Source: Chloroflexota bacterium (GTDB taxonomy: Bacteria > Chloroflexota > Anaerolineae > Promineifilales > Promineifilaceae). From it: a stretch of DNA of 56,203 bases. The notes beneath the pieces were generated by a model. That model had not been told where the DNA came from. It saw nothing but the letters and a program-made list of their open reading frames with translations, and did no database searches. The DNA lies in the NCBI GenBank assembly GCA_022616275.1, contig JAKEFB010000191.1, forward strand, positions 1 to 56,203, in the 5' to 3' direction. This document shows, piece by piece, positions 17,140-20,627 of the stretch; position 1 is the first letter of the stretch, and the number at the start of each line of letters is the position of its first letter. The position numbers were made by a program, and so were the translations under genes.

Positions 17140-18072
17140 TTGACGCAGCATCCCAAGTTCCTCATTCCTGTAGGGACCCAGGTGGTTACGTTGGTTCCAG
17201 TTGAGGGGCCTGGCGATAGGACAGTTTATCCGGCCGGCGCTGTGGCCGTGGTCGTTAAGGCGCCGCTTGATAATACCCAGTCCTATCGGGTGCGATTTCC
17301 CGATGGCTTTGAAGCGTCGCTGAAAAAGCATCACCTGGCCATTCACAAGCATTTTCAGGAAGGAGAGTGGCAACAGGCTGATGTTACCTTACCCAATGAA
17401 GAGCTGTACGAATACGTCATTTATCGCTGTGTCGTCGGTTCACGGGCCTATGGGCTTGAGGGTGAAGCATCTGACGTAGACCGGCGGGGCATTTATCTAC
17501 CTCCGGCCGAACGGCACTGGTCGCTTTTTGGCGTCCCGGAACAGTTGGAGCGCCACGAAACGCAGGAAGCGTATTGGGAATTGCAAAAGTTCCTGATCCT
17601 GGCTTTGAAAGCCAACCCGAATATCCTGGAATGCCTGTATACGCCGTTGGTGGAGTTAGCCACCCCACTGGCGGAGGAGCTACTGGCCATGCGCTCCCAA
17701 TTCCTGTCGCAACTCGTCTACCAGACTTACAACGGCTACGTCATGTCCCAGTTCAAGAAGCTCAACCAGGACATCAAAAACCGGGGACAGGTCCGCTGGA
17801 AACACGCTATGCACCTGATCCGCCTTTTGCTTTCTGGTATTACCGTACTGCGGGAAGGTTTTGTCCCCGTACAAGTTGGGGAGCACCGGGGCGAACTGTT
17901 GGCCATCCGGCGCGGCGAGACGGCCTGGGACAAAGTCAACGAGTGGCGGCTGGACCTGCACCAGGAATTTGACCAGGCCTTTGCCCAGACCAGGCTGCCG
18001 GAGCGTCCCAATTACGAAGCGGCCAATGCCTTCTTGATCAAGGCGCGCCGCAGTATGGCCGGACAGGGGTAG
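17140..18072 (+). CDS. RlaP-type (COG3541) predicted nucleotidyltransferase, first copy
   Basis: 310 residues from a TTG with AAAGGA a few nt upstream. A beta-rich N-terminal domain of about 75 residues (VGTQVVTLVPVEG, YRVRFPDGFEASL) resembles an SH3/KOW-like barrel. The polymerase-beta-type catalytic core then begins with VGSRAYGLEGEASDVDRRG, the GS motif and DxD metal site, followed by a helical region. Proteins of this family have been linked to RNA repair; the substrate is not established. It is followed by a second copy 6 nt downstream that lacks the N-terminal barrel. The TTG start and coupling to the hydrolase-like gene suggest moderate, linked translation. Confidence 0.8.
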   Translation: MTQHPKFLIPVGTQVVTLVPVEGPGDRTVYPAGAVAVVVKAPLDNTQSYRVRFPDGFEASLKKHHLAIHKHFQEGEWQQADVTLPNEELYEYVIYRCVVGSRAYGLEGEASDVDRRGIYLPPAERHWSLFGVPEQLERHETQEAYWELQKFLILALKANPNILECLYTPLVELATPLAEELLAMRSQFLSQLVYQTYNGYVMSQFKKLNQDIKNRGQVRWKHAMHLIRLLLSGITVLREGFVPVQVGEHRGELLAIRRGETAWDKVNEWRLDLHQEFDQAFAQTRLPERPNYEAANAFLIKARRSMAGQG

Positions 18073-18078
18073 AGCAGT

Positions 18079-18846
18079 ATGATTGCGCTTGACCGGCTGC
18101 GGGCTGAAGTGCAGCGCCAGCCCTACCCCCTCCTCTTTGTTACCATCAGCGGCGCACACCTCTATGGCTTTCCCTCGCCTGATTCGGACTACGATTTGCG
18201 GGGCGTTCACATTTTGCCGGCCGAACAGGTGCTTGGGCTGCATCCGCCAGAAGAAACGATTGAGCAGTCGCACGAGCGGGAAGGGTTGCAATTTGATATC
18301 GTTACTCACGACGCCCGGAAGTTTTTTCTCCTTCTGCTCAAAACAAACGGTTACGTGCTGGAGCAACTCTTTTCGCCGCTGATCGTCTACACTACGCCAG
18401 AACACGAGACGTTGAAAGCCATTGCCCAGAACTGTGTCACCCGCCATCACGTCCACCACTACCTGGGGTTTGCCCGCTCCCAGTGGCGGCTCTTCGAGGC
18501 CGAGCGGCCGCCCCGGGTGAAGCCGCTCCTGTACGTCTACCGGGTGCTGCTGACCGGTATTCACCTGATGCACACCGGCCGGGTCGTGGCCAACCTGGTA
18601 GAGTTAAACGACAGCTTCCGACTGCCCTACATTCCCGATCTGATCGAGCGTAAAATGGCCGGCCCCGAAAAATCACTTCTGGACGAGGTAGACACTTCCT
18701 TTCATCACGGCGAGTATGAACGCCTGAGCAGCTTGCTGGAAGAGGCCGGCCGGGTCACTTCTTTGCCCGACCAACCAGGAGGAAAACCCGCTCTCAGCGA
18801 TCTATTGGTCCGCCTCCGGTTACTTTCGATCAGAATTACCAAATAA
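18079..18846 (+). CDS. RlaP-type (COG3541) predicted nucleotidyltransferase, second copy
   Basis: 255 residues, a shorter paralogue of the preceding gene. The core begins at once: SGAHLYGFPSPDSDYDLRG contains the GS-like turn and the DYD metal-binding pair. FDIVTHDARKFFLLLLKTNG and a C-terminal helical region follow. In the first position the motif has SGAHLYG instead of VGSRAYG, a conservative change seen in the family. Tandem divergent copies suggest a heteromeric enzyme or two related substrates. Nothing here identifies the substrate; RtcB or ligase genes that would support RNA repair are not in this window. Confidence 0.8.
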   Translation: MIALDRLRAEVQRQPYPLLFVTISGAHLYGFPSPDSDYDLRGVHILPAEQVLGLHPPEETIEQSHEREGLQFDIVTHDARKFFLLLLKTNGYVLEQLFSPLIVYTTPEHETLKAIAQNCVTRHHVHHYLGFARSQWRLFEAERPPRVKPLLYVYRVLLTGIHLMHTGRVVANLVELNDSFRLPYIPDLIERKMAGPEKSLLDEVDTSFHHGEYERLSSLLEEAGRVTSLPDQPGGKPALSDLLVRLRLLSIRITK

Positions 18847-18890
18847 ACCACATAAAAATCCCTCAATCCCCAAATCCCCGCTAAATTTCC

Positions 18891-18919
18891 TTGACGGGTT
18901 CACGGCAAACTGTTATTAT
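18891..18919 (+). promoter_or_regulatory. Strong sigma-70 promoter of the aroH-aroF attenuator
   Basis: TTGACG (18891-18896) and TATTAT (18914-18919) are separated by exactly 17 nt. Transcription should start near 18926, only about 3 nt before the leader-peptide ATG at 18929. This is the best promoter match in the window. Confidence 0.8.
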
Positions 18920-18928
18920 GCGGCCAAC

Positions 18929-19021
18929 ATGAATAACCGGCCGGTTCGTTTTGGCTTTTACTTTTATTTTAACGCACCCCCAACGCCGCGATTGCGTGGG
19001 AGGTTCGTTTTAGCCGAGTAA
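18929..19021 (+). CDS. Phe/Tyr-rich leader peptide of the aroH-aroF attenuator
   Basis: A 30-codon frame, ATG at 18929 to TAA at 19019-19021. Residues 8-14 read F-G-F-Y-F-Y-F: four Phe and two Tyr in seven codons (18950-18970). It lies between a strong promoter and an intrinsic terminator, directly upstream of chorismate mutase and DAHP synthase genes. This matches the logic of the enterobacterial pheA leader: ribosome stalling at Phe or Tyr codons should favour read-through. The ATG is about 3 nt from the predicted transcription start, so translation would be nearly leaderless. Function is inferred from composition and position; no homologue search was possible. Confidence 0.78.
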   Translation: MNNRPVRFGFYFYFNAPPTPRLRGRFVLAE

Positions 19022-19064
19022 AAGCGGAACGAACGAGGACCCGATGTTAGAGGCAAGACGCGGC
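18943..19064 (+). promoter_or_regulatory. Alternative RNA pairings of the aromatic attenuator
   Basis: GGTTCGTT occurs twice, at 18943-18950 (just at the aromatic codons) and at 19002-19009. A single complement AACGAAC lies at 19028-19034, so the two copies compete for it. GCCGCG at 18985-18990 can pair with CGCGGC at 19059-19064, which is in the 5' arm of the terminator, giving a candidate antiterminator. A ribosome at the leader stop (19021) would cover the second repeat and allow the terminator to form. Confidence 0.55.
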
Positions 19065-19083
19065 TCAAAACCGCGTCTTTTTT
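19055..19083 (+). terminator. Intrinsic terminator of the attenuator
   Basis: AAGACGCGG (19055-19063) pairs perfectly with CCGCGTCTT (19071-19079) around a 7-nt loop, followed by a T-run to 19083. It stands 44 nt before the aroH start and after the leader peptide, with no gene ending nearby on this strand except the leader, so it is best read as a regulated terminator. Confidence 0.85.
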
Positions 19084-19126
19084 GTTTGTTGTGTATCTTG
19101 AGTAGTTAGTTATAAGGAAGGGTGTT

Positions 19127-19597
19127 ATGCATCAAAATGGCCAGACGCCACCGGGCAGCGATCCGCCGCGACTTATGTGCCGGGGGATCCGGGGAGCCAC
19201 GACAGTCACGGAAAACACGGCCGAGGCTATCCTGGCCGCCACTCGTGAACTGCTGTACCTGATGATCCGGGCCAATGACATTGATCCGGCCGACGTCGCC
19301 AGCGCCATCTTTACCACGACCAAAGACCTCAACGCCACTTACCCGGCGCTGGCCGCCCGCGAATTGGGGTGGTATGAGGCCGCTTTATTGTGCGGCCACG
19401 AAATGGACGTGCCGGGCGGCCTGCCTTACTGTATCCGCGTTCTCATCCACTGGAACACCACCCGCCGGCCGGAAGAAATCGTACACGTTTACCTGCGCGA
19501 GGCTAAGAACCTGCGGCCGGACCGGCAAACGCTGCCCCCAATCCCTTTTGAGGAACTTGAAGCGGCGATCGGCCGCGAGGTGACTCGACCATCATGA
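19127..19597 (+). CDS. aroH: Chorismate mutase, AroH class
   Basis: Converts chorismate to prephenate, the branch to Phe and Tyr. 156 residues; the AroH core (about 120) begins at [10 protein letters not shown] near residue 18, after a 17-residue extension of unknown use. Catalytic positions known from Bacillus AroH are present: R22, E in [10 protein letters not shown] in CIRVLI, and Y in HVYLREA. The start at 19127 is supported by AAGGAAGGG. It follows the Phe/Tyr attenuator and precedes aroF by 10 nt. This puts chorismate use and aromatic entry under one control that senses the end products. Confidence 0.95.
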
Positions 19598-19607
19598 GGA
19601 AACAAGG

Positions 19608-20627
19608 ATGATGATAGTCATAATGAAAGCTCAGGCCCAAATGCGAGACATATCAGCCGTCATTTCTCGGATCGAAGACGCCGGCTATAAGGTTCACCTG
19701 TCGGAAGGGGACGAGCGGACTATCGTCGGCGTGATTGGCGACGGCCGGCCGCTGGACCGCGACCAACTGGAGCGGATGCCGGGCGTGGAGCGGTGTGTGC
19801 CGGTGCTCAAGCCATTCAAGCTGGCCAGCCGCGATTTCAAGCCCAACGACACGACCTTCCCCATCGGCAACCACATGGTCGGCAATAAGGAAATTGTCCT
19901 CATGGCCGGCCCATGCTCGGTGGAGAGCCGCAGCCAGATTTTAGAGACAGCCCACGCCGTCAAGGAGGCGGGGGCCCACATTCTGCGCGGCGGCGCTTTC
20001 AAGCCGCGTTCCTCGCCTTATGCCTTCCAGGGTTTGGGGGAGGAAGGGCTGAAGTACCTGGCCGAAGCCCGCGAGCAGACGGGCCTGCCGATCGTCACCG
20101 AGGTCATGGAGCCGGCGATGGTCCCCCTGGTCTGTGAATATGCCGACATTCTGCAAATCGGGGCGCGCAACATACAGAACTACGCCTTACTCCACGCCGT
20201 GGGCGAATCGCAGCACCCGGTCCTGCTGAAGCGGGGGATGAGCAGCCTGATGGAAGAGTGGCTGATGAGCGCGGAGTACATTCTCAGCCACGGCAACACC
20301 CGGATCATGCTGTGCGAGCGGGGGATTCGGACGTTTGAGAAGTACACGCGCAACACGTTCGACATTAACGCCATCCCGGTCATCAAGCAGTTGTCGCACC
20401 TGCCGATCATTGCCGACCCGAGCCACGCGACGGGGAAGTGGGAGTACGTGGCGGCGGCGGCGAAGGCGAGCGTGGCGGCCGGGGCTGACGGGTTGATTAT
20501 CGAGGTCCACCCCCGGCCGGAGGAGGCGCTGTCTGACGGGGTGCAGTCGCTTAAGCCAAAGCGGTTCGCCCAACTGGTGGTGGAAATGAAGGCGATTGCC
20601 GAGGCGGTGAACCGGAAGATTTCGTAG
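19608..20627 (+). CDS. aroF: 3-deoxy-7-phosphoheptulonate synthase (DAHP synthase)
   Basis: Condenses phosphoenolpyruvate and erythrose 4-phosphate, the first step of the shikimate pathway. 339 residues. Residues 1-70 form a ferredoxin-like N-terminal domain ([20 protein letters not shown]) of the type found in AroA-beta/Thermotoga-like enzymes and often used for feedback control. The barrel carries GPCSVES (101-107), [12 protein letters not shown] (127-138) and ADPSHATG, the metal and PEP sites. GAGGAAACAAGG precedes the start. It is second in the attenuated operon with aroH, 10 nt downstream. Together with the leader peptide this suggests both transcriptional and allosteric end-product control. 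Confidence 0.96.

Follow-up and report, generated by a model that had tools for sequence, protein, structure and literature searches.

A probable ribosome-sensing Phe/Tyr attenuator upstream of aroH-aroF in Chloroflexota, with codon-matched counterparts at pheS and tyrS

Leader-peptide systems were known from Proteobacteria and Actinobacteria, to which a 2010 survey added Firmicutes (PMC2965389, in the sections cited here), and the Rfam attenuator motifs may stem from gamma-proteobacteria, according to the cited part of another report (PMC3766115). Attenuators have been described before aminoacyl-tRNA synthetase genes, namely trpS and leuS in Streptomyces and pheST in gamma-proteobacteria, and the excerpt of the study concerned states that no Phe or Tyr attenuator was seen in Actinobacteria (PMC1262725). 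The nearest system in function to the one presented here is aroR-aroF of Corynebacterium glutamicum, whose Phe-Tyr-Phe leader is said to respond to limitation of Phe and not of Tyr (PMC11802643, PMC4046766). Both place a Phe/Tyr leader before a DAHP synthase gene, with stalling on Phe/Tyr codons; unlike our locus, aroR-aroF belongs to Actinobacteria, and the cited parts of these reports name three aromatic residues, compared to six here, and mention no copies at pheS or tyrS. The pheA and pheST attenuators of Escherichia coli share with our locus a Phe leader peptide, competing structures and the control of pheST (PMC11802643, cited part); here, in contrast, one scaffold serves aroH-aroF, pheS and tyrS, the mRNA is predicted to be leaderless and the partner of the protector lies beyond the stop codon. 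In C. glutamicum, ilvBNC is discussed as leaderless and its hairpin H1 as an anti-antiterminator, the role that we propose below for the A:A' pairing, but this operon concerns branched-chain amino acids in another phylum (PMC11857589, in the excerpt cited). Swaps between T-boxes and leader peptides are known as well, best at hisS (PMC2965389) and also at his genes (PMC9413887), as far as the cited sections describe them. The His leaders of Bacillus hisS* and hisZ combine such a swap at a synthetase gene with a similar leader at two related genes; they differ from our case in the amino acid, the phylum (Firmicutes) and the duplication of the genes, other hisS genes carrying T-boxes (PMC2965389, same sections), whereas here the apparent swap concerns Phe and is seen between the pheST genes of sister families, and three operons carry codon-tuned copies. 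Among the matches listed in the open literature, we found no published attenuator of such a kind in Chloroflexota, and an earlier mention is possible.

The window, a stretch of 56,203 nt from a Chloroflexota genome of 8.53 Mb, very probably contains a transcription attenuator of the ribosome-mediated type, through which the charging of tRNA-Phe and tRNA-Tyr controls aroH-aroF. Four lines of evidence support this directly: the anatomy of the locus, its conservation, the coupled pairings and the match between control codons and downstream genes. All the elements lie on the plus strand. A promoter (18891-18919), made of a -35 box TTGACG (18891-18896), a 17-nt spacer and a -10 box TATTAT (18914-18919), is followed by a leader ORF (18929-19021) with its ATG at 18929-18931, 30 codons (MNNRPVRFGFYFYFNAPPTPRLRGRFVLAE) and a TAA stop at 19019-19021. 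The control codons F-G-F-Y-F-Y-F occupy residues 8-14 (18950-18970). A 9-bp intrinsic terminator, AAGACGCGG-CTCAAAA-CCGCGTCTT (19055-19079), then a U tract, precedes aroH (19127-19597), which encodes a monofunctional chorismate mutase (PF07736, E 1.8e-45; TIGR01796), and aroF (19608-20627), which encodes a DAHP synthase with a ferredoxin-like domain (PF00793, PF18152, NF006421). Promoter, leader and terminator had been proposed in an initial annotation made from the sequence alone and were read directly at these positions, and its gene assignments are backed by Pfam and NCBIfam. Upstream of the locus, at 17140-18846, two adjacent genes both match the RlaP RNA-repair family.

Within the transcript, we distinguished several strands that can pair. 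Strand A (18944-18963) overlaps the control codons and has its protector partner A' around and after the stop codon (19016-19034), overlapping with strand C' (19028-19037; 19016-19037 for both). Strand B (GCCGCG, 18985-18990), the candidate antiterminator strand, begins 14 nt past the last control codon, and strand C (GTTCGTTT, 19003-19010), the putative inner antiterminator strand, lies close to the leader end. Strand D (19055-19064) consists of the terminator 5' arm AAGACGCGG and the next C; it can pair either with D' (CCGCGTCTT and the U tract, 19071-19083) to form the terminator or, via its CGCGGC (19059-19064), with the complementary GCCGCG of strand B to form the antiterminator. The motif GGTTCGTT is present twice, at 18943-18950 and 19002-19009, and AACGAAC (19028-19034) complements the core of both copies. 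In the window fold, C:C' joins 19004-19010 to 19031-19037, with an alternative register of 19003-19009 with 19028-19034. Since A' and C' overlap, A:A' and C:C' are mutually exclusive in the window.

Taken singly, the promoter and the terminator could not be told from chance in this one sequence: between 18000 and 20500, one promoter was found for 0.8 expected and three terminators for 2.6 expected, neither being significant. The leader fold was better than 200 of 200 shuffles (z -3.7), and the terminator pattern occurred twice in the whole genome, at this locus and at pheST, with no match for the control patterns. It is the comparison across aroH loci, exceeding both reverse-strand and shuffled controls, that sets the leader above chance. 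Among 80 named aroH loci, 31 had an upstream short ORF with at least five F/Y per eight codons; on the reverse strand, two of the 80 did, and shuffles gave 0.85 per 80. Of the 31, 29 are titled as Chloroflexota groups, and the other two (L068, L102) look chance-like. We found aroH matches in 47 of 60 related genomes and in 46 of the 53 genomes of the window's family, its own genome being included in both counts. With the criterion of one frame holding at least five F/Y within eight codons, an F/Y-run leader was present at 41 of the 45 family aroH loci for which 150 nt or more of upstream DNA was available (absent at L005, L011, L012 and L045; L009, with only 143 nt, was dropped) and at 12 of 15 aroH loci from other families of the class (absent at L036, L039 and L046). 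Two genomes, G011 and G017, lack a leader at aroH but carry the element at another place, before a gene for a DAHP synthase (L208 in G011; L245, of the AroFGH type, in G017).

A terminator scan placed an intrinsic terminator 25-48 nt past the leader stop in all 41 distinct family leaders, and found none at 4 of the 12 leader loci from other families of the class, nor at L075, L081, L083, L084 and L085. In these last five, the F/Y leaders all end in HTAWSLRTV or a similar sequence, and two of the loci are titled Chloroflexales or Chloroflexaceae. In a sample of 400 genomes of the phylum, the family model gave matches in 18, several of them partial and one (L162) without an F/Y run, and such matches understate the wider spread of the leaders. 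Among the matches, the aroH most similar by percent identity to that of the window (L049, 80% over the match) comes from a record titled Desulfobacterales and had no leader found upstream, which is perhaps gene transfer or mis-binning.

The mRNA of the leader is predicted to be leaderless because 39 of 42 leaders have their start codon 6-10 nt past the -10 box. This pattern, in which an ATG at the stated distance follows a promoter that agrees with the consensus at 9 or more of 12 letters and has a 17-nt spacer, was found on none of the 42 reverse strands and in 2 of 840 shuffles. The 42 leaders used for the promoter and codon counts are the 41 family members and one from another family (L017), which stands outside all pairing tests. 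In the window, the ATG is 9 nt past the -10 box, which predicts a 5' UTR of about 0-4 nt and a start site at or just 5' of the ATG. In the cited part of a published survey, a TA-like box about 12 bp ahead of the start serves to recognize leaderless genes, of which few are listed in Chloroflexi (PMC3160421). The present leaders have a -10-like box at about this distance.

To analyze the pairings, we compared the pairing of each leader with its own segments to that with segments swapped from other leaders, using 56 of 76 distinct loci (39 from the family and 17 from other families); loci without a terminator found, with an N or with a chance-like leader (L068, L072, L102, L124) were left out. 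In the family, the control-codon region was coupled to the segment past the stop codon (A:inter, z -8.6), and the leader end was coupled both to this segment (post:inter, z -5.3) and to the terminator 5' arm (post:D, z -4.0). The control pairings were uncoupled (A:D, z 0.2; A:post, z 2.9). In the other families, coupling was observed for A:post (z -3.4) and post:D (z -2.1), but not for A:inter (z -0.9) or post:inter (z 0.7). These values indicate that the protector of the family reaches past the stop codon whereas the other families have a local layout. The leaders at pheS and tyrS, described below, gave A:inter values of z -5.4 and -5.3 and post:inter values of z -2.3 and -2.8, respectively, with A:post controls at z 0.8 and -0.5; post:D was not significant at either (p 0.15 and p 0.73).

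The B:D helix was further analyzed in 38 aligned leaders, against shuffles that related sequences can exceed without any structure. None of 500 shuffles reached the proportion of paired cells (85.0%, compared to 78.5% shuffled), the number of double-changed cells (22, compared to 9.5) or the covariation (0.157, compared to 0.082), while the number of pairs with a double change and the further pair types were reached by 87 and 372 of 500 shuffles and were not significant. Two outer pairs, added after the alignment was viewed, form in 17 and 20 of the 38 sequences. At one of the inner pairs, two related sequences have A-U in place of G-C, the terminator partner having changed too, and the terminator arms are 98.7% paired. 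Features by which classical attenuators are recognized were observed here: a leader ORF with a run of control codons, a terminator between the leader and the first gene, an antiterminator sharing a strand with the terminator (as judged by comparison, two of the five B:D measures not being significant), a protector that includes the control-codon region, although its topology is unlike the textbook adjacent hairpin, and downstream genes that make or charge the sensed amino acids. The initial annotation had read the locus as a Phe/Tyr attenuator, with GCCGCG:CGCGGC as a candidate antiterminator and the duplicated GGTTCGTT sharing one complement. Both pairings fall within those coupled across the family, and the aromatic codons and stems whose conservation it had proposed to check are retained in relatives, with some measures not significant. 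It had not seen the predicted leaderless mRNA, the scaffold at pheS and tyrS with matching codons, or the T-boxes of the same genomes.

A model built on the family leaders revealed a second element in the window's own genome, ahead of pheST (contig C12), and matched 51 of the 53 family genomes with 1-5 matches each, some being reverse-strand echoes. After setting aside the echoes, five matches at the ends of contigs and some that were short and partial, we read 80 matches outside aroH: 35 stood before pheS, 34 before tyrS, 3 before aroF and 8 before other genes. At pheS, F exceeded Y in 35 of 35 leaders, 27 of which had no Y at all; at tyrS, Y exceeded F in 28 of the 31 readable leaders, with ties in 3 and no usable peptide at L215, L250 and L263. 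By comparison, all 42 aroH leaders contained both F and Y. Training on F/Y leaders biases the model toward F/Y runs, but this bias does not extend to the sorting of F to pheS and of Y to tyrS. The identity of the control codons tracks the downstream gene on one scaffold. The own genome has two tyrS matches, the better of which (C118) showed no Y run within 350 nt upstream.

To look for attenuators with different control codons, we applied a scaffold-only model (R2) to 16 genomes, weak matches being scored partly. Its strong matches, among those listed, corresponded to the known element classes. Reading 22 further or unclear matches yielded one more pheS leader (L295), and 18 of the 22 had no control-codon run. 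At L259, L260 and L299, the gene that follows a terminator of the GACGCGG or GGCGCGG type encodes an ABC transporter ATPase, and no clear control codons were seen. In genus g4 (L157, L226, L229, L238, L262), the same scaffold carries leaders of the type FVFxSDC or similar. Downstream lies a gene for a conserved protein of roughly 104 aa, with no Pfam match in the two that were searched, and at some loci also one for a methyltransferase.

At pheS outside the family, a different sensor was found. No F-run leader with at least four F in eight codons was present before pheS at 25 loci. One of these, L316, belongs to the family and, with 3 in 8, itself falls below this cut-off; at the 24 loci outside the family, F likewise peaked at 3 in 8 (L328, too short, was excluded). 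No Y-run leader (at least three Y in six codons) was found before tyrS at 24 loci outside the family. By contrast, a T-box (RF00230) lay within about 200 nt before pheS at 14 of the 24 loci (12 of 15 and 2 of 9) and 630-740 nt upstream at three more (L321, L340, L335), the remaining ones having no T-box of their own. By eye, 16 of these 17 T-boxes, including all 14 adjacent ones but not that of L335, have TTC (Phe) at what we take to be the specifier position. The T-box acts on the same operon and responds to the same signal as the attenuator, the charging of tRNA-Phe; unlike it, a T-box binds the tRNA directly, and none was found at the 20 family pheS loci scanned out of 35, in stretches beginning about 130 nt before most elements. 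Elsewhere in their genomes, T-box matches numbered 6-9 in each of eight family genomes searched, with 6 in the own genome. Within the sister family f2, an F/Y leader stands at aroH in one genome (L043), and a second genome carries a T-box at pheS (L317). At L323 and L341 (G041:C84), two tandem pheS-like genes stand behind a single T-box.

The T-boxes at pheS outside the family and their absence from the 20 family loci suggest that the Phe T-box was replaced there by the ribosome-sensing attenuator. Going by its distribution, the attenuator seems to be ancestral at aroH and derived at pheS and tyrS, the direction of the swap and the copying of the element being read from the present-day loci. 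On balance, we favour a history in which the class originally had a leaderless attenuator at aroH-aroF; in the window's family, versions of it with rewritten codons, Phe-rich at pheST and Tyr-rich at tyrS, would then have arisen by copying or anew, and the one at pheST would have taken the place of the Phe T-box that sister families kept. If true, this would be a natural swap between two unrelated sensors of the same tRNA charging, tyrS would be under attenuation by Tyr codons and the protector would pair across the stop codon.

For the mechanism, we infer a leaderless start, a stall, a read-through response and a kinetic order of pairing that would combine as follows. Transcription would begin on the leader ATG or a little upstream of it, and ribosomes would load on the leaderless mRNA. 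When Phe or Tyr is scarce, the ribosome would stall on codons 8-14 and mask strand A; C:C' and B:D would then pair as a single nested antiterminator and RNA polymerase would read through. When both Phe and Tyr are plentiful, the ribosome would reach the stop codon and mask C, A' and C', leaving D to pair with D' and transcription to terminate. Without a ribosome, A:A' would form and exclude C:C' and B:D, leading to termination too.

Folding models agree with this scheme in part. Within the leader, the segment that best complements D begins at a median of 13, 15 and 17 nt past the last control codon at aroH (n=38), pheS (n=35) and tyrS (30 of 31), respectively, and 13-17 nt is about the reach of a stalled ribosome. 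In RNA folded before D' is made, B:D was present with a stalled ribosome in 36/38 aroH, 33/35 pheS and 27/30 tyrS leaders, compared to 20/38, 24/35 and 14/30 without a ribosome and 27/38, 21/35 and 15/30 with a ribosome at the stop codon. In these models, B:D is favoured by the stall over the ribosome-free state, and weakly over the ribosome at the stop. In the window, B:D formed solely in the stalled state, as a nested hairpin with C:C' (-30.4 kcal/mol); in the pheST leader of the same genome, it formed in each of the three states. The terminator remained in the best fold of the full transcript even with a stalled ribosome (37/38 aroH, 26/35 pheS and 29/30 tyrS), and in these models the choice of structure would therefore have to be kinetic. 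The choice of structure by ribosome position is the weakest step of the proposed mechanism.

Other explanations of the locus were considered. The same attenuator could use a local 1:2 textbook hairpin as its protector, A:A' being non-functional. This layout does exist in relatives, as the 17 loci outside the family couple A:post and neither A:inter nor post:inter, and the ribosome-free fold of the window also holds a local hairpin (18971-19009) inside A:A'. However, the family shows the reverse (A:inter z -8.6, A:post z 2.9) and its pheS and tyrS leaders agree with it, and we consider a local protector unlikely at this locus. A translated leader could also control the operon differently, by means of Rho, of translational coupling or of a peptide acting in trans. 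One leader peptide of this last kind has been reported elsewhere (PMC7298713, cited part), and some loci outside the family have a leader peptide with no terminator found by the scan. Against this stand the intrinsic terminators of all 41 distinct family leaders, their well-paired arms and, for coupling, the 84-284 nt between leader stop and aroH match in the family, which is far for such an effect; we regard these routes as improbable.

The T-boxes common in these genomes could raise the question of a T-box or another metabolite-binding riboswitch at aroH. No Rfam family reached its gathering score in the window, the Rfam amino acid leader families and the T-box gave nothing up to E 10 in 18880-19140, and none of the six T-box matches of the own genome lies on contig C96, making this very hard to sustain. 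The notion of a chance ORF beside the terminator of the upstream gene fits the near-chance promoter and terminator scans in the single sequence, yet it would leave aside the conservation, the coupled pairings, the match between codons and genes and a terminator pattern confined to two elements of the genome, and we give it almost no weight.

Overall, the attenuator is well supported and its mechanism is a known one; what sets it apart is its presence in a phylum for which we found no described case, the topology of its protector and the codon-tuned set at three operons. Such leaders, which extend across a class of Chloroflexota, point to a wider or repeated origin of leader-peptide attenuators. 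The three codon-tuned versions on one scaffold amount to a natural codon-swap experiment that supports the mechanism, and the apparent change from T-box to attenuator at pheST would be a further case, after hisS of Firmicutes, in which the sensors were exchanged while the signal and the target were kept.
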